From a virus, in IMG/VR virus record IMGVR_UViG_3300042449_000993, positions 62,001-126,000 of that record: DNA of 64,000 bases, one strand, 5' to 3'. Under the pieces are notes generated by a model. That model saw nothing but the letters and a program-made list of their open reading frames with translations, made no database searches and was not told the DNA's origin. Every line of letters starts with the position of its first letter. The stretch's first letter is position 1. Shown here piece after piece: positions 7,712 to 62,350 of this stretch. The position numbers were made by a program, and so were the translations under genes.

Positions 7712-8493
7712 GATTTATTAAGTATTTTATGGGTGATAATAATGACATTTTGGACAATGGCATTCATCCAAAAAAAGACGATATTGAGTTTATCTGTTTC
7801 ATGGGTCAGGCTGCGTCTCATGAACAAACTCGAGTTAAACTTGCAAAAGAAGTCGACACAAAATTTAAAAAGTATCAAGTCGAAAAGCATGGATCGTACA
7901 CCTTTGCTCAATGTCCAGGAATGTTAGATTATTCCCGTCTAGGATATATCATTCCAGCATGGACCAACTTTGAGTTCATGTACAACTCTGCAGGTGTAGA
8001 GATATTTGATGGAACAATCGATTCTAGAGTTCGCTCTAAAATTCCATTAAGAGGATTCGATCCAACTATTTTCGATGGCGCAATTAAAAACGACGATGGA
8101 TCTAAAACTGAAATCTATAACATTCAAGCACCTTGGCATATTCGATGCAAGCCTGGAGTCCATATGATGATTATGCCTGCATTCTATCATAGCAATATTC
8201 TAGATGATTTTCATATCCTTCCAGGTGTTATTGATTATGGTAGCGGATTTCATACGATTAATTTCTTAACTGGACCAAAGAGATATGGTCAGTTTAAGAT
8301 TATGATGGGCGAGCCTCTATTCCACATCATTCCTCTCAAGAATGTCCCATTCACTGCTTCTTATGGACTTGTTGATAATTATAAAAATGTCTATAAAGAA
8401 GATGAGTTTTTTGGTAAAATTAAGAGTTTCTATAGAAAATTTTATTGCGGAAAGAGAAAATTCTCCTTACGAAAGGAGATGGGAGATAAATGA
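7708..8493 (+). CDS. Conserved phage protein, DUF6065-like (copy 2)
   Basis: 261 residues, starting in an ATGA overlap with the preceding gene and ending in an ATGA overlap with the glycosyltransferase. Shared features with copy 1 are a central GYIIPAWTNFEFMY segment (compare GFVIPLAADCHVL), a PWHIRCKPGVHMMIMPAFYH segment (compare APGWSSLFIPPINN), and a late GEPLFHIIPLK segment (compare GTPLITVIPIK). The N-terminal part differs and the C-terminal tail is basic and longer (YRKFYCGKRKFS). It is probably a diverged tandem duplicate with related function. No catalytic motif is visible and the biochemical role is unknown. Confidence 0.6.
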   Translation: MRFIKYFMGDNNDILDNGIHPKKDDIEFICFMGQAASHEQTRVKLAKEVDTKFKKYQVEKHGSYTFAQCPGMLDYSRLGYIIPAWTNFEFMYNSAGVEIFDGTIDSRVRSKIPLRGFDPTIFDGAIKNDDGSKTEIYNIQAPWHIRCKPGVHMMIMPAFYHSNILDDFHILPGVIDYGSGFHTINFLTGPKRYGQFKIMMGEPLFHIIPLKNVPFTASYGLVDNYKNVYKEDEFFGKIKSFYRKFYCGKRKFSLRKEMGDK

Positions 8494-9473
8494 AAACTAT
8501 TTTCGTAAGCATTGCTTCATATAGAGATAAACTTCTTTTAGCAACTCTGAACTCATTAAGGCAAAATGAGTCTGGTCGAAATAAGATCGTTTATGGTGTT
8601 TTCGAACAGACCAAAAAAGAAGACAGTTTAGAGACAAAAGCACCAGAGTTGCTAGACAATGCTGCGATTCGATACAAAAGAATAGACCCAGAATATGCTG
8701 ATGGAGTCGTCTGGGCTCGAGCAATCAACGCCATGCAGCACTATGATGAAGAGTTTTTCTATCAGATCGACTCTCATATGCTCTTTGATAAAGACTGGGA
8801 TAACACTCTTTTGTGGGACTATCAACAAGCATCTAGGCTTGCAAATAACCCTAAAGTTATTTTAACAACAGGCACGAAGAATTTCGAGTATTTCTCAAAT
8901 TATATCACAAAACATACACTAACTCGTGATATAACAGTGAATTTTAAGTATTGGCAATTTGATAAGGAATTATGTCTAAAGGTTCATGGTCCTTGGATTG
9001 CCGCGACTGATACTGTTGTTCCTGGAATCCATACGATCGCAGGTAACTTTTTCGCACCTGCTACCTGGATTAAAGATGTCGGATTCAACACTAGATTGTT
9101 TTTTGAGTATGAAGAACAATATATGTCTCTTACATCCATATTGGCTGGATATAAAATCTATCATCAGAGAAAGATCCAATGCTATCATTATCTGGATTCT
9201 GCGAAATCAACAACTCGCCAAGAGAACGATCCAGTTCGTCCGTCGAAGATCTTTGACAATAAGAAGCGAGAGAAGGAGGAATTTATCAATTATATATACT
9301 CTTTAGGTGAGGAGAAACTTGAAGAATATCGAAGATTGACAGGAGTTGATTATATAAATAGAAAATTAGAAGAGCGCGCAATCACCAGAACCGTTCCTCC
9401 AACAATTCCTGTTGATTGGGAATTGCCTCAACCACCAGAACCAGCAAAAGACGAAGAGAAAAATGAGCCTTGA
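8490..9473 (+). CDS. Skp1-type GlcNAc glycosyltransferase (PF11397-like)
   Basis: 327 residues. It begins FVSIASYRDKLLLATLNSL, followed by GVVWAR at 72-77 and the metal-site motif QIDSHMLF with D94-S-H96. This order is typical of the GT-A family whose founder, Dictyostelium Gnt1, adds GlcNAc to hydroxyproline on Skp1. Related genes occur in bacteria and large phages. The C-terminal 40 residues are Pro- and Glu-rich and probably disordered. The gene overlaps the preceding unknown by four bases and the following one by eleven. Its nearness to a prolyl-hydroxylase-like gene (6364) and to Pro-rich fibres suggests glycosylation of hydroxylated virion proteins. Sugar and acceptor are not readable from the sequence. 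Confidence 0.8.
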   Translation: MKTIFVSIASYRDKLLLATLNSLRQNESGRNKIVYGVFEQTKKEDSLETKAPELLDNAAIRYKRIDPEYADGVVWARAINAMQHYDEEFFYQIDSHMLFDKDWDNTLLWDYQQASRLANNPKVILTTGTKNFEYFSNYITKHTLTRDITVNFKYWQFDKELCLKVHGPWIAATDTVVPGIHTIAGNFFAPATWIKDVGFNTRLFFEYEEQYMSLTSILAGYKIYHQRKIQCYHYLDSAKSTTRQENDPVRPSKIFDNKKREKEEFINYIYSLGEEKLEEYRRLTGVDYINRKLEERAITRTVPPTIPVDWELPQPPEPAKDEEKNEP

Positions 9474-10508: not shown

Positions 10509-13118
10509 ATGAAGGTAACGGTTGGATCAAATAGTAATACATCATTCCAACCAGCAACAGACAGAGGTTCTGGTGCTGCCATAACTGTCAATCCACCTGC
10601 AGGTTCTACTGTTAAAATCTCAACAGTTGGTGGTGCTGGCACAGGACCTGCATACGATCAAGCAAACATTGCTAGATCTACTGCGAATAGTGCTTATGGA
10701 CAAGCCAACGCTGCATACAATGCGGCAAATAGCGCCAAAGTCACGGTGTATGCAAATAGTGGTGCAGCCAACGCAACCACACAAAATATTAATTTTGTAA
10801 ACACATCGTCGATTCTTGTCACAGTTGCAAATACAAACGGAAATGCAAATATTTCGTTTGCAGTCACTGGTGCTGCTGCTGGTGATGCGTATGATCAAGC
10901 AAATGCGGCAAGAGACCAAGCAAATACAGCACTTAATGTTGCTAATGGCGCATATAGTCAAGCCAACGGAGCATATGCCCAAGCAAATGGTGCTTACTCG
11001 CAAGCAAACGGAGCATATAATCAGGCTAATGGTGCATATGCTCAAGCCAATGGTGCATATGCTCAGGCTAATGGAGCATACTCTCAAGCAAATAGTGCTT
11101 ACAATCAAGCCAATGATGCATACAGTCAAGCGAATGCTGGATATGCAACTGCTAATGCGGCTTATGCGACAGCAAACACTAAATTAAGTTTATCTGGTGG
11201 TACAATTACAGGACCAATTAGTGGATTAGGAAATTCTAAACTAGACCTTACTACTTTCGGAGCCAACACCGCATATCTAACAACTACTGATAATGATTCT
11301 ACTGCATTGTTTATGGGAGCGGTGTCTGCTGAGTTATACGCTAATACATATGTTCAAATTAGAGCCAATACTGGAGGAGCATCACAAAACTGGACATTTG
11401 GTGCAGATGGTACATTAACATTTCCAGACACAACAGTACAAACTACAGCCTTTACAACCGAATTAACTAATGCAATCTCAAATACGGTATCAACTGTATC
11501 GACAATTGCAAATGCCGCATACGATAAAGCAAACACTGCACTAGATATCGCGAACGGCGCATATGGTCAAGCCAACGTTGCGCGCACTACTGCAAACGAT
11601 GCATATGATCAAGCGAATACCGCTAGAAACACTTCCAACAGCGCATATCTACAAGCAAATAATGCTTATGATACAGCCAATTTAAAACTTAATATTTCTG
11701 GTGGAACCATTAATGGTTCATTGAATATCAGTGGAAATTTATTTGTTAGTGGCAACACATCATATATTAATGTTTCAACATTTGTTGTTGATGATGCATT
11801 AATTTATCTCGGCGCAAATAATACTCTTAGCGATGTTGTTGACATAGGATTTATTGGTGCGAAAAACAGTGGTCCATCAGTAACTCATACTGGTCTTGTT
11901 CGTGATGCTGGAGATGGTACTTGGTATTTGTTCGATAATTTGCCAGATTCAGGTCATCAAAATAACGTAGTTGATTTTGCAAACACCACGCTTGCAACAC
12001 TTCGAGCAAATATCGCTGCAAATAGTATTCTTTTAGTTGGAAACGTCGTTGCTACTCAAGCCAACTTAACTCTTGCGTTCAATCAAGCAAACACGGCGAG
12101 AACAACTGCCAACGATGCATATGGACAAGCCAATTCTGCTAGAGACCAAGCGAACACCGCTAGAGATCAAGCCAATACCGCCAGAAATCAAGCAAATTCA
12201 GCCTACGCAGATTCTAATACTCGAGTCTTAAAATCTGGCGATACAATGACAGGTCAATTGAACATCAGTTCAGGTGGCTTGATTGTTACTGGTAATATTA
12301 CCACAACAGGAGCAAGTGGTGATATTAGTGGCGTTAATACAATATATGCTGGAACTTTCTCAACAACTGCTGGGTTGAATGTAACTGCTCAAGCAGCAAA
12401 TGCATACGATCAGGCAAATAATGCCAGAAATCAAGCGAACACAGCTCGCGATCAAGCGAATACCGCCAGAACAACGGCGAATGATTCTTATGGCGCAGCA
12501 AATACAGCAAACACTAATGCATTAAATGCTTATGCTCAAGCCAATGCCGCTTATGATGCAGCCAATAATGCTAAAATAACGGTATTCCAGAACAATGCTT
12601 CAGGAATAACCACTCAAAATCTAAATTTTGTCAATACATCAACTGTAACTGTAAGTGTTCAGAATAGTAGTGGAAACGCAAATATATCATTCACCTCTAT
12701 CGGTGGTGTTCAAGATTATTCTTATAATACGACTTCAACCTCTACCGAAACTGTAGATTCGTGGTCAACTACAGCCTTCCGAAGCGGTAAGTATCAAATT
12801 CAAGTCTCCAGCTCTGTGGGTTATTTGACTTGCGAGATCGCTCTGCTTCATGCAGGAAATGTCACAAACATGTTACAGTATGGAAACGTTTCTATTGGTG
12901 CACCAGTTGGCGTATTCACATCGGATGTAAATAACGGTAATGTTCGTCTTCGATTTGCAGCAACCGACATTACGACAAGAATTAGATACTTCAGATCATT
13001 GTTAATTAATGATTCTGGATTCGACCCAGAAGTTCTCCCAACAGATCTCATGACTGGTATCGACACATACGATCTGATGGAAGTTCTCTACCTCATACCG
13101 ACAGATCTAAATGCATAG
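10509..13118 (+). CDS. Long tail fibre, alanine-heptad type
   Basis: 869 residues. The order is: a short N-terminal domain; alanine heptads (AYDQANA, AYSQANG), interrupted by a STSSILVTVANTNGNANISF module; a long run of GAYAQAN heptads; a globular domain with GTLTFPDTTVQTTAF; more heptads; a domain with SGNLFVSGNTSYINVSTF-like and GFIGAKNSG motifs that reappears in the next gene; further heptads; and a unique C-terminal domain (about residues 740-869) with SWSTTAFRSGKYQIQVSS. The last motif is shared with many phage neck/fibre tips. The heptads have Ala at 4-3 spacing, so a trimeric alanine coiled coil is expected. It is probably a host-recognition fibre. Confidence 0.8.
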   Translation: MKVTVGSNSNTSFQPATDRGSGAAITVNPPAGSTVKISTVGGAGTGPAYDQANIARSTANSAYGQANAAYNAANSAKVTVYANSGAANATTQNINFVNTSSILVTVANTNGNANISFAVTGAAAGDAYDQANAARDQANTALNVANGAYSQANGAYAQANGAYSQANGAYNQANGAYAQANGAYAQANGAYSQANSAYNQANDAYSQANAGYATANAAYATANTKLSLSGGTITGPISGLGNSKLDLTTFGANTAYLTTTDNDSTALFMGAVSAELYANTYVQIRANTGGASQNWTFGADGTLTFPDTTVQTTAFTTELTNAISNTVSTVSTIANAAYDKANTALDIANGAYGQANVARTTANDAYDQANTARNTSNSAYLQANNAYDTANLKLNISGGTINGSLNISGNLFVSGNTSYINVSTFVVDDALIYLGANNTLSDVVDIGFIGAKNSGPSVTHTGLVRDAGDGTWYLFDNLPDSGHQNNVVDFANTTLATLRANIAANSILLVGNVVATQANLTLAFNQANTARTTANDAYGQANSARDQANTARDQANTARNQANSAYADSNTRVLKSGDTMTGQLNISSGGLIVTGNITTTGASGDISGVNTIYAGTFSTTAGLNVTAQAANAYDQANNARNQANTARDQANTARTTANDSYGAANTANTNALNAYAQANAAYDAANNAKITVFQNNASGITTQNLNFVNTSTVTVSVQNSSGNANISFTSIGGVQDYSYNTTSTSTETVDSWSTTAFRSGKYQIQVSSSVGYLTCEIALLHAGNVTNMLQYGNVSIGAPVGVFTSDVNNGNVRLRFAATDITTRIRYFRSLLINDSGFDPEVLPTDLMTGIDTYDLMEVLYLIPTDLNA
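10900..11190 (+). repeat. Alanine-heptad coding repeat, fibre 2
   Basis: This is the longest uninterrupted array in this gene, about fourteen 21-base units encoding GAYAQAN/GAYSQAN-like heptads. Shorter arrays lie at about 11510-11690, 12070-12230 and 12395-12570. Units match those of the flanking fibre genes closely enough to be recombination substrates. Confidence 0.75.
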
Positions 13119-13177: not shown

Positions 13178-16100
13178 ATGCCAACAACATTACAATTTAG
13201 AAGATACGATACAGCAAATATTGCCAATACAACTGGTGCTGTTGGTGAAATCTTCATTGATATGGATAAAGACACTATCGTTGTTCAGGATGGTGTTACT
13301 TCTGGTGGATTTCCTCTGGCTAGAGAGTCTGCTCTTATTTCTGCATATGGTGGTGCTAATGCAGCCTACGATCAAGCCAACAGTGCTCGAGATCAAGCCA
13401 ATACTGCCAGAGACCAGGCAAATACTGCTCGAACAACCGCCAACGATGCGTACAATACAGCAAATACAAAACTTTCAAGTTCTGGTGGAACAATCAGTGG
13501 AAATCTTGTAATTTCTGGAAATTTAGAAGTTTTAGGAAATAGCACCACACTTAATGTTGAAACTCTTCTCGTTGAAGATAATGAAATTGTTCTAAATGCG
13601 AACGTGGTCGGCGCACCATCATTAAATGCGTTCATTACGGTAAATCGCGGATCAAATCAAAATTCAGCTCTAGTTTGGTCTGAAGTTGGAATTGGGTATT
13701 GGGGTTGGTCTGACGGTGATGGAGTTATCTACTTCGATTCGTTAAGAGCAGCCACTGTTGCAACAAATACTGCTCTTAATCAAATAAACGCAACAATTGT
13801 CAATGTTAACACAAATGTTGCCACAGTTTATGATCAAGCAAATGCCGCTCGCAATCAAGCAAATACGGCTAACACTAATGCGAGTACCGCCAAAGGACAA
13901 GCAGATATAGCTCGAGATCAAGCGAACGTTGCTCGTACGACTGCTAATGATTCATATGGTCAAGCGAACACTGCTAGAGACCAAGCAAACACCGCACGCG
14001 ATACTGCTAATGGAGCATACGACCAAGCAAATGGTGCGTATGGTCAGGCTAACGGCGCATATGCTCATGCAAATATTGTTTACGATCAAGCGAATACTGC
14101 TCGTAATCAGGCAAATACTGCGCGAGACACAGCAAACGGCGCATACGATCAAGCAAACGCAGCATATGGCGACGCCAATACTCGAGTGTTGAAGGCTGGC
14201 GATACAATGACTGGTGCACTAAATGTACAGTCAAATGTAACAGCTGTTGGATTCTTGAGCAGCAAAACAACTCTTCAAGCACCAAGCACCACAAACTTTA
14301 ATGGTGAACGTGTTCGTCTTTATGACTTTAACGAAGCAGGTCACCCAAACTATGCAATTGGCGTTGAAACAAACTTTATTTGGAGTGGCACAGACGAAAA
14401 TAACGGTCAAACTGGTTTCGCGTGGTATGGAAATACTACACGAAATGCTATTATGCGTTCCAATGGTACGTTGCAATTAAGCAATACTGTTGAAGCAAAA
14501 GTTATTCGCGCTAATGGTACTGGCACTGCAATTGATGCAAGTCAAGGTAACATTCTAACAAATGAAGTCACTGGTACGAAGTTTAAATTCCTTGCTGGTG
14601 CAAATACAGTAACTGTTGATGCCTCTGGTGCTCTAGCAAATTACACATTTAATCTACCGCCAACAGGTGGTGTTGCTGGTCAAGTGCTTGAAACAGATGG
14701 TAATGGAGACACTATTTGGAGCAGTAACGTTTATTCATTGACGAATACAGTTTATGATCAAGCAAATACTGCTAGAAACCAAGCCAATACTTCCAGAGAT
14801 CAAGCAAATACTGCTAGAGATCAGGCGAATAGTGCTACTGTTATTGGTGAGAATGCATACGCTCAAGCCAATACAGCTCGAGATATTGCCAATGCATCTT
14901 ATGGTCAAGCAAATGCTGCATATGATGATGCAAATACCAGAGTATTGAAATCTGGCGATACGATGACAGGAACATTAAATGTCGCTGCGTCATTAATCAC
15001 ACAGAACATTGTTCCAAATCTAAATGTAACTTACGACATTGGTACAGCTGATAAAAGATTCAATGATCTTTATCTTTCAAACAGTTCTATCTATCTTGGT
15101 GATGCAGTTCTAACTGCAAATGGTCCAGTTCTTGTTGTTTCTGGAATTGAAATTGATGGAAGTGGAAATCTAGTTGCTGCATTCGAGTCATATAATCAAG
15201 CCAATGCTGCCAGAGATCAGGCGAATACTGCCAGAGATACTGCGAATGGAGCATACGGTCAAGCAAATGGTGCTTATGCTCATGCAAACATCGTATACGA
15301 TCAAGCAAATACTGCACGTGACGCAGCTAATGCATCTTATGGGCAAGCGAATGCCGCTAGAGATCAAGCGAATACGGCTCGCGACGTTGCCAATGCATCT
15401 TATGGACAGGCAAACACTGGAAGCACTCAAGCAACTGCCGCCAGAGATCAAGCGAACGTTGCTCGTACAACTGCAAATGATTCTTATGGACAGGCGAACA
15501 CTGCTAGAGATCAGGCTAATACCGCACGCGATACTGCTAATGGAGCATACGACCAAGCAAATACTGCTCGTGACACTGCAAACAGTGCTTACAATGCAGC
15601 AAATAACGCACAAGTAACTGTTTACGCAAACAGTGCTTCTGATGTCACAACTCAGAAAATCAACTTTGTTAATACCTCCACGATTACCGTATCAGTAACA
15701 AATAGTGCTGGGAATGCAAACATTGCATTCACGGCAACTGGTGGTGCTGCTTACGATCAAGCCAATGCTGCTTACGATCAAGCAAACACTGCACGTAGTA
15801 CTGCAAATGATTCTTATGGACAAGCAAACACTGCTCGCGATGTAGCAAATGCTTCTTATGGTCAAGCAAATACCGCCAACACCAATGCATTGAATGCTTA
15901 TGATCAAGCAAATACTGCCAGAGACCAAGCGAATACTGCTCGAACAACAGCTAATGATTCATATGCTCAAGCGAATACCGCTCGCAATACTGCAAACGAC
16001 TCATATAGCCAGGCAAATACTGCTCGCAACACTGCTAATGATTCGTATGGACAAGCCAATACTGCTAGAGATACAGCCAATGGTGCGTATGGACAAGCGA

Positions 16101-18571
16101 ATACTGCTCGTGATACAGCCAATGATGCTTATGGTCAAGCAAATACCGCTAGAGATCAGGCAAATACTGCTCGCAATACCGCAAATGGTGCATATGGTCA
16201 AGCGAACACTGCTCGTGATACAGCGAATTCTGGATATGGGCAAGCAAACTCTGCGCGCGATCAAGCCAATACTGCTCGAGCAACAGCAAATGATGCTTAC
16301 GGTGCAGCAAACACTAAATTGTCGACTTCTGGTGGATCTATCAGCGGAGACTTGACAATTTCTGGTAATCTTGTTATTCAAGGTAATGCAACGACGATCA
16401 ATGTCAGCAGCTTGTCAGTTAATGACTCTATAATTTTGTTGTCAGCAAATAGTACTGGTGACGCAGAGGATATTGGTTTTGTTGGACATTATACTAATGG
16501 CGCGACAAATACTCACGCTGGTTTCTTCAGAAAAGCAACAGAAAATCAATTTTATGTCTTTGACAATTATGAAACTGAACCAACAAATAATGTCATTGAT
16601 ATTGCAAATAATAATTTTAGAATTGGTAATGTTAGACTTGGAATTTTAAATGCGAATAGCGTTTTGTTGCTCGGCAATTCAGTTGCAACTCAAGCAAATC
16701 TAACATTGGCTTACAATCAAGCCAATAGCGCAAGAGACCAAGCCAACACCGCTCGCACGACTGCAAACGATGCATATGCAGAGGCAAATAGTGCGGAAAC
16801 AATTGCGCTCAATTCATATGGTCAAGCCAATACTGCTCGCGATCAAGCGAATACTGCTCGTAATACAGCGAATTCTGGATATGGTCAAGCCAATACCGCA
16901 CGTGACACTGCAAATGGCGCTTATGGTCAGGCTAACGGCGCATATGCTCAGGCAAACACTGCTCGCGATCAGGCAAACACTGCTCGCGATCAGGCAAACA
17001 CTGCTCGTACGACTGCAAATGATTCATACGCTCAAGCGAATACTGCAAGAAATACTGCAAATGATGCATATGCTGGTGCTAATACGGCAAATACCAATGC
17101 ATTGAATGCTTATGCTCAAGCCAATAACGCTAGAGATCAGGCAAACACTGCTCGCACTACAGCCAATGATGCTTATGGTCAAGCAAATACCGCTAGAGAT
17201 CAGGCAAATACTGCTCGCACTCAAGCAAATACTGCTTACGCTCAAGCCAATGGTGCTTATGCCCATGCGAACATTGTTTATGCTCAAGCAAATACAGCAT
17301 ACGATCAAGCAAATTCTGCTCGTAACCAGGCAAATACAGCAAGAGATACTGGCAACAATGCATACGGTCAGGCAAATACTGCTCGTGACCAAGCAAATAC
17401 TGCTCGAACAACCGCCAACGATGCGTACATTCAAGCAAATTCAAATTACCAGCCAGCAGTCACAAGGCTGAATGTGACAAATAGTGGAACATCTGATTAT
17501 TTGTTTGATCAATACTCAGGCGGTGATCCAACACTTTATGTCCGTGCTGGTGAAACTATTGCATTTAATTTAAACGTTTCAGGACATCCATTCTTAATTC
17601 GTGTTTCAAGTGGTGGAGCGTTATATAACACTGGACTTACTCACGTTGCAACAAACGGAACTGTGTCCACTGAAGGCAGTGCTCAGGCTAAAGAAAGTGG
17701 AACATTATATTGGAAGGTTCCATATAACTTACTTGGAAACACTTACGTTTATCAATGTCAAGTTCATGCTGGAATGGTTGGCAATATTGTAATTGAACCA
17801 CCTGGAACAATTGCATATGCACAAGCCAACGCTGCGTATGGGCAAGCAAACTCAGCCAGAGATCAAGCAAATACCGCTCGTACTCAAGCAAACACAGCAC
17901 GCGATACTGCAAATGCTGCGTATGGACAAGCGAACACGGCTCGTGACACAGCGAATGCTGCTTACGGCGCAGCAAATACAGCTGGTACAAATGCGCTAAA
18001 CGCATACGAACAAGCAAATACCGCTAGAGGTCAAGCGAATACTGCTAGAGACCAAGCAAACACCGCTCGTACTCAAGCGAATACGGCTTACGGACAAGCC
18101 AACGCCGCCTATGGTCAAGCGAATGCTGCTTATGGTCAAGCGAATTCTGCTTATGGTGCAGCAAACAATGCAGTATTGAAGGCTGGCGACACCATGACTG
18201 GTGTGTTGGTTGTTCCAGGTATTCGTAATTCAGGTAACTTGATTCTTGGTACTGTTGCAAATACAAATACCAATGGCGCCAATACATTGAATCTTGCTCA
18301 ATCAAACTTCTTTACAAGAACTTTGACAGCAAACTCCACGATCACCTTCTCAAATGCTCCAGCAAGTGGCAACTCGCAGTCGTTCACGCTTGTTATTGTT
18401 CAAGATGGTGTGGGTAATCGCGGCATAACTTGGGCAAATACGATTTATTGGGCAGGTGGCGAAGTTCCTCCGCAAACTTTGACAGCAAACTACCGAGACG
18501 TTTGGCAGTTTGCGACATATGATGGTGGATCAACCTACTTTGGAACTTTGGCTATTAAGGATGCACGCTAA
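13178..18571 (+). CDS. Giant tail fibre with alanine heptads and a cupredoxin-like domain
   Basis: 1797 residues. It begins TLQFRRYDTANIANTTGAVGEIFIDMD, a tail-fibre N-terminal motif used to attach to the baseplate or to another fibre. Alanine heptads (ARDQANT and variants) fill most of the length and are broken by at least five globular modules, several with SGNL-x-V/I-x-GN strands. Near residues 1423-1544 there is a cupredoxin-like domain with GHPFLIR and, later, YQCQVHAGMVGNI. The final 120 residues carry GDTMTGVL followed by a beta domain ending in FGTLAIKDAR, a common tip domain of marine phage fibres. It is probably the main long fibre. Shadow open frames on both strands are caused by the repeats. 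Confidence 0.82.
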   Translation: MPTTLQFRRYDTANIANTTGAVGEIFIDMDKDTIVVQDGVTSGGFPLARESALISAYGGANAAYDQANSARDQANTARDQANTARTTANDAYNTANTKLSSSGGTISGNLVISGNLEVLGNSTTLNVETLLVEDNEIVLNANVVGAPSLNAFITVNRGSNQNSALVWSEVGIGYWGWSDGDGVIYFDSLRAATVATNTALNQINATIVNVNTNVATVYDQANAARNQANTANTNASTAKGQADIARDQANVARTTANDSYGQANTARDQANTARDTANGAYDQANGAYGQANGAYAHANIVYDQANTARNQANTARDTANGAYDQANAAYGDANTRVLKAGDTMTGALNVQSNVTAVGFLSSKTTLQAPSTTNFNGERVRLYDFNEAGHPNYAIGVETNFIWSGTDENNGQTGFAWYGNTTRNAIMRSNGTLQLSNTVEAKVIRANGTGTAIDASQGNILTNEVTGTKFKFLAGANTVTVDASGALANYTFNLPPTGGVAGQVLETDGNGDTIWSSNVYSLTNTVYDQANTARNQANTSRDQANTARDQANSATVIGENAYAQANTARDIANASYGQANAAYDDANTRVLKSGDTMTGTLNVAASLITQNIVPNLNVTYDIGTADKRFNDLYLSNSSIYLGDAVLTANGPVLVVSGIEIDGSGNLVAAFESYNQANAARDQANTARDTANGAYGQANGAYAHANIVYDQANTARDAANASYGQANAARDQANTARDVANASYGQANTGSTQATAARDQANVARTTANDSYGQANTARDQANTARDTANGAYDQANTARDTANSAYNAANNAQVTVYANSASDVTTQKINFVNTSTITVSVTNSAGNANIAFTATGGAAYDQANAAYDQANTARSTANDSYGQANTARDVANASYGQANTANTNALNAYDQANTARDQANTARTTANDSYAQANTARNTANDSYSQANTARNTANDSYGQANTARDTANGAYGQANTARDTANDAYGQANTARDQANTARNTANGAYGQANTARDTANSGYGQANSARDQANTARATANDAYGAANTKLSTSGGSISGDLTISGNLVIQGNATTINVSSLSVNDSIILLSANSTGDAEDIGFVGHYTNGATNTHAGFFRKATENQFYVFDNYETEPTNNVIDIANNNFRIGNVRLGILNANSVLLLGNSVATQANLTLAYNQANSARDQANTARTTANDAYAEANSAETIALNSYGQANTARDQANTARNTANSGYGQANTARDTANGAYGQANGAYAQANTARDQANTARDQANTARTTANDSYAQANTARNTANDAYAGANTANTNALNAYAQANNARDQANTARTTANDAYGQANTARDQANTARTQANTAYAQANGAYAHANIVYAQANTAYDQANSARNQANTARDTGNNAYGQANTARDQANTARTTANDAYIQANSNYQPAVTRLNVTNSGTSDYLFDQYSGGDPTLYVRAGETIAFNLNVSGHPFLIRVSSGGALYNTGLTHVATNGTVSTEGSAQAKESGTLYWKVPYNLLGNTYVYQCQVHAGMVGNIVIEPPGTIAYAQANAAYGQANSARDQANTARTQANTARDTANAAYGQANTARDTANAAYGAANTAGTNALNAYEQANTARGQANTARDQANTARTQANTAYGQANAAYGQANAAYGQANSAYGAANNAVLKAGDTMTGVLVVPGIRNSGNLILGTVANTNTNGANTLNLAQSNFFTRTLTANSTITFSNAPASGNSQSFTLVIVQDGVGNRGITWANTIYWAGGEVPPQTLTANYRDVWQFATYDGGSTYFGTLAIKDAR
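13340..18170 (+). repeat. Dispersed alanine-heptad coding arrays, fibre 3
   Basis: At least six arrays of 21-base units, the densest at about 15180-15610, 15750-16320, 16710-17440 and 17810-18170. Units encode ARDQANT, ARTTAND, AYGQANT and related heptads. Long near-identical stretches are shared with 3-540 and 10900-11190. Confidence 0.75.
17446..17808 (+). other. Cupredoxin-like domain inside the giant fibre
   Basis: Within the coding sequence of the giant fibre, about 120 residues break the heptad pattern. They contain LYVRAGETIAFNLNVSGHPF at 17536-17595 and YQCQVHAGMVGNIVI at 17751-17795. In blue copper proteins the metal is bound by one early His and a late Cys-x-x-His plus a Met. Here His (HPF), Cys, His (C-x2-H) and Met (H-x2-M) are all present, so copper binding is possible. 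The Met spacing is shorter than in plastocyanin. Confidence 0.6.
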
Positions 18572-18603: not shown

Positions 18604-19617
18604 ATGAAGATACATGTACTTGCTATTCCAACCAAGCCAACTGGTTTAATGGATCGCATGGAAGCATTTTCCGTGCATGCCTACAAATACATTAAACATC
18701 TCTCACCTCATTTTGAAATGATTCATTATGGGCTTGAGGGATCTACAGTTGATTGTAGACATATTGATGTTGCAGCGCATGACAATAATGATCTTGAAAA
18801 ATTCAATCGATCTGCTGCTCAAGCAATACAAAAGAATAAATCGCCTGGTGATATTATTGCCTGCTTCTATGGCACAGAAAATCAACTGGCATGCGATTTA
18901 AATTCAGATTGTCAATCTCTTGAGCCATCAATTGGTTATAGAACCAGCTGTGTGTTTGCCAAATATAAAGCATTCACATCATACGCTCACATGCATATGT
19001 TTTATGGCGAGCGAAATATGGTAAACAACCCTTCTTGGTATGATACAGTAATTCCAAATCCATTTACTATTTCTGAATTCGATTATCAATCTAAAAAACA
19101 TGACTACTATGTTTGCATGGGCAGAGTTGTTCCAGAAAAGGGTATACATTTGGCAATTCAAGCGACGCAACAACTTAATCGTAAACTTGTAATCGCAGGA
19201 CCAGCAACAGATTTAAAACATTTAGGATACGATAAAATTCCAGACCACGTTGAATTGGTTGGTTATCTAGAACCGAAAAAGAGAAATGAATTGCTTGGTA
19301 GAGCAAAGGCACTTTTAGGTCTAACTTATTATGTTGAGCCATTTGGAAATATGGTTATTGAAGCAAATTTGTGCGGCACTCCAGTAATTACAACAGATTG
19401 GGGTGCATTTCCAGAAACCGTATTTGAAGGAAAAACTGGATATAGAGTTAATGATTTTAAATCGTTGATTCAAGCCATGATTAATGTTGAAAGCGGTGTA
19501 ATGATTAATCCTCGCGATTGTAGATTTTGGGGAGAAAGATTCTCAGATGAAATCGTTCATGAAAAACATAAAGCCTATCTAGAAAAAATTATAACAAATA
19601 ATTTTTATGCGCTCTAA
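18604..19617 (+). CDS. GT4-family glycosyltransferase
   Basis: 337 residues. The C-terminal Rossmann half is typical of group 1 (GT4, GT-B fold) enzymes: YYVCMGRVVPEKGIHLAIQA near residue 165, RKLVIAGPA, and the donor-binding E-x7-E motif in PFGNMVIEANLCGTPVITTDWGAFPE around 245-270. The N-terminal acceptor domain is divergent, with GDIIACFYG near residue 80. The enzyme would transfer a nucleotide-activated sugar to an acceptor. Candidates are tail fibres or host-like glycans, since it follows directly the fibre genes. It overlaps the next gene by 11 bases. Sugar and acceptor are unknown. Confidence 0.82.
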   Translation: MKIHVLAIPTKPTGLMDRMEAFSVHAYKYIKHLSPHFEMIHYGLEGSTVDCRHIDVAAHDNNDLEKFNRSAAQAIQKNKSPGDIIACFYGTENQLACDLNSDCQSLEPSIGYRTSCVFAKYKAFTSYAHMHMFYGERNMVNNPSWYDTVIPNPFTISEFDYQSKKHDYYVCMGRVVPEKGIHLAIQATQQLNRKLVIAGPATDLKHLGYDKIPDHVELVGYLEPKKRNELLGRAKALLGLTYYVEPFGNMVIEANLCGTPVITTDWGAFPETVFEGKTGYRVNDFKSLIQAMINVESGVMINPRDCRFWGERFSDEIVHEKHKAYLEKIITNNFYAL

Positions 19618-49080: not shown

Positions 49081-50373
49081 ATGACAAAAGTTATTATTGC
49101 CAAATCAAAATTTGATTGCGAACATTTGCTAGGTCAATTTCTTGATGAGTCTCATTTTGACACTCTCATCAATGAAGACACTGATTGTTATCTTGGAAGT
49201 GAACACGAAGATAATATTGCATTCAAGTTTCGTAAAAATTACTTCAGCAAACAAGAGCAAGATGCTGCGTATGCTGGATTGAGAGAAGCAGCAACACCAA
49301 CTCAAAACCGTGGGCTTGCTGCTGGACCGAAAGGTGAGAAATGCGGTGGTCGTGAATGGGCTACTGAGTTTCAATTGCGTGTTTTAGAATTCTTCAAGAA
49401 GCAGCCAGAAAATTCTGTTGTCAAGATTGATGTTGCTGAAGAAGTAGAAAATCTTCGAGAGAAATATAAAGACGAAGGTTCATCACGTGGTCTTGTTTGG
49501 TTGAGTGCCAAAGTCAAAGAGGATAATTTTGACTTTGATAAGTGGCTCAAGAAAGCAGTTAAGATGTCTGTGAAGGATCGTAAAGAAGAAGCACGTGGTG
49601 TTGAAGAAACTTATATCTCTGACACAACTTATGCCAATGTAGTTTTGTCTGGCATTGCTGGATGGTTTGATCGTTATCCTCGCATTCCATATGGTCGTGC
49701 GACAGCATATACGCAAAACTCATTTGATAAATTTCAAATGTCATTTCCGTTTTTACAAACACTTGATCGCGGTTTTGCAGAATTGTTACCAAATCGTCAT
49801 GCTGCTCAACGTGAAGCAGCAGATAAAATTGACCCAGCATTCCTCGTTCCACAAACTGTGTTTACAACAATCACAGTGAACAAAACATTTAGAACAGCAG
49901 CGCATCGCGATGCTGGTGACTTTACGAATGGGTTGAGTAATCTTCTCGTTCTTTCAAATAATGGCAATTATACAGGTGGATATCTCATATTGCCAGAAGT
50001 TCGTATTGCTGTGAATGTACGACCAGGTGACCTGCTGCTTGTCAATAATCATGAGTACATTCACGGCAATACACCTATTGAACTACAAGATGAAACTGCT
50101 GAGCGTGTAAGTCTTGTTTGTTATCTGCGTGAGAAGATGCTCGAACTTGGAAGCAAAGAGTATGAAGATCATCGATTTAATTATGTTGAGTCACGTCGAA
50201 AAAACAAAGAACATCCACTCCAACGAAGACTCTGGAATGGCATTTCAGAAGGAATGTGGGAAGAACAAGAGTGGTATGACTATCTTGAGAGAGTTGGTGG
50301 AAAAGAGATGGTTCAAAAATACCATCCAAAAGCATATGAAGAAATCTCAACCCTAGAAAATATGTTCGCCTAA
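49081..50373 (+). CDS. TET/JBP-family DNA dioxygenase
   Basis: 430 residues. The catalytic core (about 200-355) has the TET/JBP pattern: FTTITVNKTFRTAAHRDAGD with H275-x-D277, then YTGGYLILPEVRIAVNVRPGDLL split by the usual turn, distal H328 in YIHGN, and R342 for 2-oxoglutarate. JBP proteins hydroxylate thymine in DNA to 5-hydroxymethyluracil; phage TET homologues act on 5-methylcytosine. Which base is used here cannot be read, but the downstream hydroxymethyluracil-type kinase and pyrophosphorylase favour thymine. The N-terminal 190 residues, with GLAAGPKGEKCGGREWATEF, form an extra domain. First gene behind a consensus promoter. Confidence 0.85.
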   Translation: MTKVIIAKSKFDCEHLLGQFLDESHFDTLINEDTDCYLGSEHEDNIAFKFRKNYFSKQEQDAAYAGLREAATPTQNRGLAAGPKGEKCGGREWATEFQLRVLEFFKKQPENSVVKIDVAEEVENLREKYKDEGSSRGLVWLSAKVKEDNFDFDKWLKKAVKMSVKDRKEEARGVEETYISDTTYANVVLSGIAGWFDRYPRIPYGRATAYTQNSFDKFQMSFPFLQTLDRGFAELLPNRHAAQREAADKIDPAFLVPQTVFTTITVNKTFRTAAHRDAGDFTNGLSNLLVLSNNGNYTGGYLILPEVRIAVNVRPGDLLLVNNHEYIHGNTPIELQDETAERVSLVCYLREKMLELGSKEYEDHRFNYVESRRKNKEHPLQRRLWNGISEGMWEEQEWYDYLERVGGKEMVQKYHPKAYEEISTLENMFA

Positions 50374-61889: not shown

Positions 61890-62350
61890 GTATACACGAC
61901 CCTCATGAATTCATAAAATATAAATTGTCAGCTGACACTCATGTTCGCGATGGAAGAAATCTATACGAACATTTATGCAATGTTGAAAAAATTCTCAAAA
62001 TTTGTGGATGTGATGACAGCGTTTGTTTAGCTGGATTATTTCATAGTGTTTATGGCACATCAAAATGGCGTCATGAAAGTATTAGAGATAGAGAATTGGT
62101 TAGAAGTATCATTGGAGAAAGAGCAGAACATCTTGTTTGGATTTTCAGTAATGCAAAAAGACCATTTTGTTGGTTGTTTGGAGAAAATATTCCAATGACT
62201 GATGGATCATTTGCTCGCGTTGATCGTGATACATTGCATGACCTTCATATGATTGAGGGTGCGAATCTCCTCGAGCAACAGGGTGGGTTGGTTGAGATAC
62301 TTTCATTCGCCTCTATGCAGAGCCCAGAGGAACTCCGAGGAGAGAGATAA
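61886..62350 (+). CDS. HD-like protein (DUF6817 type)
   Basis: 154 residues from ATG 61886. The sequence LYEHLCNVEKILKICGCDDS followed by VCLAGLFHSVYGTSKW matches a compact HD-domain-like family that I recall as DUF6817. The His residues (EH, FHS) could bind a metal, but the classic H-D pair is replaced by H-S. Such proteins appear in nucleotide-metabolism neighbourhoods, and this one is coupled to dCMP deaminase. The last residues (SPEELRGER) are encoded in the G-rich left arm of a long inverted repeat. Confidence 0.65.
   Translation: MSIHDPHEFIKYKLSADTHVRDGRNLYEHLCNVEKILKICGCDDSVCLAGLFHSVYGTSKWRHESIRDRELVRSIIGERAEHLVWIFSNAKRPFCWLFGENIPMTDGSFARVDRDTLHDLHMIEGANLLEQQGGLVEILSFASMQSPEELRGER

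Follow-up and report, generated by a model that had tools for sequence, protein, structure and literature searches.

We analysed a 64-kb window of viral DNA, positions 62,001 to 126,000 of the 172,991-base IMG/VR record IMGVR_UViG_3300042449_000993, and describe a predicted cupredoxin domain with putative type-1 copper ligands inside its giant tail fibre. The window carries T4-type terminase, sheath, portal, scaffold and major capsid genes, which assigns the phage to the T4-like myoviruses. The fibre gene and its parts are located as follows:

13178..18571 (+), open reading frame (ORF) of the giant tail fibre, 1797 residues, with alanine-heptad (Alanine_zipper) repeats, from Pfam and PHROG matches
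13193..13300 (+), Mtd_N-like N-terminal domain, residues 6-41 (Pfam Mtd_N, 26.4 bits; cut-off 26.3)
17444..17809 (+), predicted cupredoxin domain, residues 1423-1544, from AlphaFold2, Foldseek, VIA-align and profile matches
17585..17587 (+), His1470, first putative copper ligand, in SGHPFLI; His in 120/124 non-redundant relatives
17756..17758 (+), Cys1527, putative thiolate ligand; Cys in 118/124
17765..17767 (+), His1530, putative second imidazole ligand; His in 119/124
17774..17776 (+), Met1533, putative axial ligand; Met in 121/124

The fibre matches Pfam Alanine_zipper in 9 stretches (E 4.7e-25) and PHROG tail fibre families (best E 8.8e-49). Its Mtd_N-like N-terminus is probably the end that attaches to the virion, of which the fibre would be a component. 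Residues 1423-1544 are non-heptad, unlike the surrounding fibre stretches. The original prediction placed a cupredoxin-like domain here and proposed a structure prediction of these residues as a check. Its residue limits are right, and its coordinates (17446-17808) differ by 1-2 bases from the in-frame span 17444-17809.

The AlphaFold2 model, calculated with 117 aligned sequences, is a confident cupredoxin fold (predicted local distance difference test, pLDDT, 93.2; predicted TM-score, pTM, 0.86). The model, the titles of the Foldseek matches and VIA-align agree on a Greek-key β-sandwich. In the PDB, Foldseek matched 67 chains at E<=0.001, and the best 50 of the 67 are all cupredoxin-domain proteins by title, including rusticyanin (3e-5), amicyanin, plastocyanin, nitrite reductases, laccases and CuA subunits. 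In VIA-align, a copper nitrite reductase matches at Z 10.7 with a root mean square deviation of 2.4 over 107 residues, and the N-terminal part of Hyphomicrobium NirK scores Z 10.3 at 26% identity (96 residues). Predicted structures of viral proteins agree with the cupredoxin fold as well. Normalised to query length, the TM-scores reach moderate values of about 0.4-0.55, suggesting that the window domain is a distant branch of the cupredoxins.

A profile from the first-round relatives locates the domain at residues 1421-1542, its sole copy within the window. Another profile, built from bacterial relatives only (21 of the 36 cellular domains described below, all of one class, with the truncated domain excluded), matches residues 1425-1540 with a domain E of 8e-16. 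When all 1032 segments of the window were shuffled 20 times, the best E of the same profile was 2.5, which rules out chance or composition as the source of the match. The domain misses the cut-off of Pfam PF00127 Copper-bind (14.5 bits vs 21.2, E 0.048), and from that sub-threshold match alone the caution of the original prediction was fair. Single-sequence PDB searches gave weak matches for the window domain (pseudoazurin, E 0.85; plastocyanin, 1.1; plus unrelated reductases) and, for two relatives, one weak plastocyanin match (E 0.057) and otherwise noise. A profile search was needed for matches in the PDB, and its E-values are still modest, the best being 0.001. By the model, its structural matches and the bacterial-relative profile, residues ~1423-1544 are predicted to form a real cupredoxin domain inside the alanine-heptad fibre, as had been proposed.

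The four ligand candidates of the original prediction (a His, a Cys-x2-His pair and a Met) are all found, as His1470, Cys1527, His1530 and Met1533. In the model, the first His lies between the strands 41-47 and 53-56, the Cys ends the strand 103-108, and the second His and the Met are located in the next loop. According to secondary structure and fold matches, the ligands occupy cupredoxin positions, a statement about positions and not about side-chain distances. The ordered and conserved set His...Cys-x(n)-His-x(n)-Met is that of a type-1 copper site. The spacing Cys1527-His1530-Met1533 is C-x2-H-x2-M, which had raised a doubt as being shorter than in plastocyanin. This doubt falls away, since the PDB alignments show the same loop in the solved structures 9cck (CTLHPWM), 6hbe (CSIHPYM) and 2vmj (CTPHPFM, presumably the amicyanin loop), and the spacing is thus what a short-loop type-1 site normally shows. 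The window domain shares the fold, the His-Cys-His-Met order and the C-x2-H-x2-M spacing with type-1 cupredoxins such as amicyanin, plastocyanin, rusticyanin and NirK. It differs from them in its first His, which stands in GHPF, and in its sub-threshold Copper-bind score. Moreover, the window domain is embedded in a phage fibre and is not a free redox carrier.

Relatives were collected by five scans of viral contigs, followed by a profile search over the recovered loci and the window. This yielded 377 domain hits, of which 374 span the ligands (3 were dropped as not spanning them) and 124 are kept at 85% non-redundancy. The original prediction had also proposed an alignment with related phage domains, and in this alignment the four-ligand set is conserved: 117 of the 124 read H/C/H/M, one reads H/C/H/Q, two read Q/S/S/M, and H/S/F/L, F/S/H/V, Y/S/F/M and H/S/N/M occur once each. 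As to the core ligands (His, Cys, His), 118 domains have lost none, 0 have lost one, 3 have lost two and 3 have lost all three. The six domains without Cys all lack at least one His as well, and Cys and the second His are lost jointly in 5 domains against 0.24 expected (Fisher p 2.7e-8, n=124). On the tree, viral Cys losses fall in about 5 lineages with differing replacements, the nearby branch support being 0.33-0.95; parsimony counts 6 losses, one of which is the truncated bacterial domain of L349 with gaps at the ligands, so 5 are counted. At ten other positions of similar conservation, the six Cys-less domains are mostly intact, with 0 or 1 loss each. This near all-or-none loss, as read from the alignment, fits a metal site and not an inherited decoration.

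A bias of the scan pattern was considered as the cause of the H/C/H/M excess and rejected, because 86 of the 90 domains in loci from a ligand-less seed still read H/C/H/M. Among non-seed domains, excluding loci with the seed elsewhere, 28/34 are H/C/H/M, and three of the 6 exceptions are one divergent FSHV group. Distant baseplate-wedge domains, which appear as truncated hits in the third profile iteration only, were left uncounted except for one H/C/H/Q member. Across the 117 phage domains, PF25489 (At5g54830-like) is the commonest Pfam match (43/117) and Copper-bind is matched by 21/117 at E<=0.01; the NCBIfam matches of the 117 relatives are weak only (6 rusticyanin, 6 plastocyanin, 5 halocyanin, 3 amicyanin). 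We also notice a divergent cupredoxin-like class in baseplate wedge genes (L169, 4519-4872, and relatives), which has NHPL...YWCHYHTGQG with Gln at the Met position, and stretches similar to this class occur without ligands in genes of other contigs.

The conservation pattern bears on the reading that the domain is a metal-free spacer or adhesin, a β-sandwich taken from a secreted bacterial cupredoxin with its ligands left over. Leftover ligands should decay singly, whereas all three core ligands are kept in 118 of the 124 relatives and exactly one is lost in 0; Cys is kept in the same number on a virion surface that is probably exposed. What speaks for a metal-free bead is a second domain of the same phage, which lies outside the window:

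164834-165133 of the virus record, second cupredoxin-fold domain (L085, L326), in a 1210-residue collagen-like (GPQG) fibre

At its ligand positions, His is replaced by Gln, Cys by Ser and the second His by Ser, and Met is kept. An identical IMG/VR copy gives an AlphaFold2 model with pLDDT 96.2 and VIA-align Z 11.2 to a nitrite reductase domain and 10.9 to rusticyanin, so this copy is predicted to keep the fold. Weighing both sides, we regard a metal-free role of the window domain as quite improbable. The fold thus serves in a fibre that lacks the site, yet the site is kept whole where it is present, as would be expected of a metal with a role other than holding the fold.

Several points weigh against a copper site. 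The first His stands in GHPF, unlike the PHN of plastocyanin, and HMMER puts it one residue out relative to plastocyanin; HPF is familiar only from laccase type-1 sites, and rusticyanin has GHSF. The ligand-less fibre copy indicates, as modelled, that the fold is usable without metal. Joint loss is also seen for two glycines taken as a control pair (5 domains of 124), so shared ancestry alone can yield co-loss and inflate such tests. Met is retained in 4/6 Cys-less copies and may therefore also have a structural role, and the F/S/H/V domain is very divergent. Finally, the cytoplasm, in which phage tails are put together, contains little copper. The last point raises the idea that the site holds another metal, most likely zinc, which cupredoxins often contain when produced recombinantly. 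Met is seldom a ligand in zinc sites, however, and a Met axial ligand, present in 121/124, is typical of copper sites, so that we give another metal hardly any credence. All in all, the domain very probably binds copper.

One scan of genome contigs, seeded with a consensus-like phage domain, recovered 22 cellular loci, from Acidobacteria, Alphaproteobacteria (OCS116, PS1, Rhodobiaceae), Muricauda, Paraliomyxa and others. They contain 36 domain hits, 34 of them H/C/H/M, one H/C/H/Q and one truncated. The bacterial domains are 48-68% identical to a phage relative over the domain and have the same ligands. These relatives consist of one or two domains, and some show export signals by eye, whereas the window domain belongs to a fibre. 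At least two of them appear to be exported when inspected by eye: L328 combines a signal peptide, one domain and a C-terminal membrane stretch, and L331 looks like a lipoprotein. In the latter, an acidobacterial relative (L331, 3842-4321), Gln occupies the axial Met position (CQFHSSQ); Gln is the axial ligand in stellacyanin. Marine Alphaproteobacteria (L332, L335-L337, L339-L348) encode a ~430-residue protein in which two cupredoxin-like domains, different in class and each H/C/H/M, stand in tandem. Next to the alphaproteobacterial relative in L337 lies a Y-family polymerase / S24 peptidase pair, and this neighbourhood gives no functional clue.

Among phages, the domain is a recurrent module and not peculiar to the window fibre. 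By tblastn against 50,697 phage records, the window domain matched 327 and the ligand-less domain 340, the latter named Synechococcus (268), Cyanophage (46), Prochlorococcus (19), Marine (6) and Actinomycetia (1). A T4-type portal search matches 2400 records, including 381 named Synechococcus, 62 Cyanophage and 626 Escherichia, and no Escherichia record is found among the domain matches in the 50,697 records, the domain and portal sets being compared by totals. A crude motif count over the 336 domain-bearing ORFs of the recovered loci and the window, not de-duplicated, classes 26 ORFs as alanine-heptad, 104 as collagen-like and 206 as other; 38/336 carry two or three copies of the domain.

In several cyanophages, the domain forms the C-terminal end of the baseplate wedge/fibre connector. 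All 117 members of our alignment A1 match positions 301-409 of 412 in PHROG 677, the cyanophage baseplate wedge tail fibre connector (gp10-like), whose C-terminal ~109 positions are thus of the window's domain type. A full-length match was not found, and the scan with the full-length fibre did not return PHROG 677. Since only positions 301-409 of 412 match, PHROG 677 and the window fibre share a domain and are not the same protein; the window fibre otherwise consists of alanine heptads, and its domain is internal, not C-terminal. With the same profile, no such domain was found in the wedge region 77500-93100 of S-CREM2. The cyanophage S-SZBM1 encodes a wedge protein of 498 residues (coding sequence SSZBM1_206, 146110-147606), likened to PHROG 677 by its C-terminal domain, which has SHPF and YQCTIHSGM, an intact H/C/H/M set. 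This protein was found by liquid chromatography-mass spectrometry in CsCl-purified virions; the published entry reads 51.38 kDa, 498 residues, 9 peptides and 24.9% coverage, for the whole protein and not specifically for the domain (PMC9146016). A protein with a homologous domain is therefore present in virions of another T4-like phage.

On the basis of these results, we favour with moderate confidence an explanation in which an intact cupredoxin module holds copper, which pins its ligand loop and shapes a contact face. The module, with a mononuclear type-1-style site, would form a compact bead flanked by alanine-heptad stretches and would take up copper in the host or after lysis. The copper may staple the ligand loop of an exposed, disulphide-free β-sandwich, with one of the bead's poles as the contact face; whether pinning the loop and shaping a host-surface contact face is its main task seems to us evenly balanced. 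Electron transfer would be possible and is not required for this role. A bead with a free thiol would be oxidised in sunlit, oxic water, and copper ligation would protect it, which may be a simple reason to keep the whole ligand set or to drop all of it.

The original prediction had also offered a contraction trigger as a possible role. In that case, the type-1 copper would exchange electrons with the host surface or a periplasmic partner during adsorption, and a redox-driven change in the ligand loop would signal to the baseplate. The ligand set is intact, and the end of the baseplate wedge/fibre connector, where the cyanophage domain lies, is a plausible site for a switch. However, the domain also occurs in mid-fibre and several times per protein, far from a baseplate switch, natural ligand-less copies exist, and no partner is known. 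Type-1 copper sites are rigid and built to change little in shape on redox. We consider a redox-active contact or trigger improbable; a stabilising role or one in host contact seems more plausible to us than the triggering of contraction.

Could the copper instead serve as a Trojan horse, mimicking a copper chelate to dock on a copper-uptake receptor of the host? Type-1 copper is buried in the protein and would hardly be visible to a chelate receptor, and no such receptor is known. The host of the window phage is not established either: a cyanobacterial host was considered, and the portal is equally near to cyanophages (best matches ~52% identity) and a Stenotrophomonas phage (53%), and psbA was not found in the virus record, which is possibly incomplete. 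In favour of the docking role, the domain occurs widely among Synechococcus and Prochlorococcus phages, and a parallel proposal exists for iron-binding HxH sites in an Alteromonas phage fibre (PMC11705849). We take this role to be very unlikely. In the Ferrojan/Trojan horse hypothesis, the fibre likewise acts as a metal carrier, with iron in HxH sites, whereas the window fibre has a cupredoxin-type site. Cupredoxin genes are also reported from some cyanophages in the form of plastocyanin petE (PMC2984593, PMC5083919); petE has its role in the metabolism of the host, whereas the window domain is part of a structural protein.

Near the fibre gene, we notice a second alanine-heptad fibre of 869 residues directly upstream (10509-13118, +), which matches fibre families also matched by the giant fibre and has no cupredoxin domain. 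Glycosyltransferase genes (18604-19617, +, and 8490-9473, +) may decorate fibres or host glycans. Farther away, a Tet_JBP-type 2-oxoglutarate/Fe dioxygenase (49081-50373, +, E 3.6e-24) suggests oxidised bases in the phage DNA.

The cupredoxin fold is old. In titles and abstract openings matched by our searches of the open-licence literature, which leaves subscription papers and preprints outside, we found no description of this domain in a virion protein, nor of its use as a repeated, ligand-complete fibre or baseplate module; the consulted parts of two cyanophage papers (PMC10665884, PMC10966104) contain nothing relevant on copper or plastocyanin in structural proteins. The C-terminus of PHROG 677, annotated only as a connector, can now be relabelled. 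By analogy with T4, a trimeric, six-fold fibre type would carry about 18 copper beads. We speculate, tentatively and with more doubt than conviction, that many T4-like cyanophages and their relatives are copper metalloparticles, whose beads on baseplate connectors and fibres are kept whole by selection for host contact or as a redox cue, next to metal-free sister beads in the same virion. Seawater copper is low, tightly complexed and toxic to picocyanobacteria. As a reservoir, virion copper would be negligible, about 3 femtomolar if 1e5 phages per mL with 18 sites each are assumed. If the site holds copper, the virions of one of the commonest phage groups in the ocean would be metalloproteins, and copper availability could bear on the stability or adsorption of these phages.

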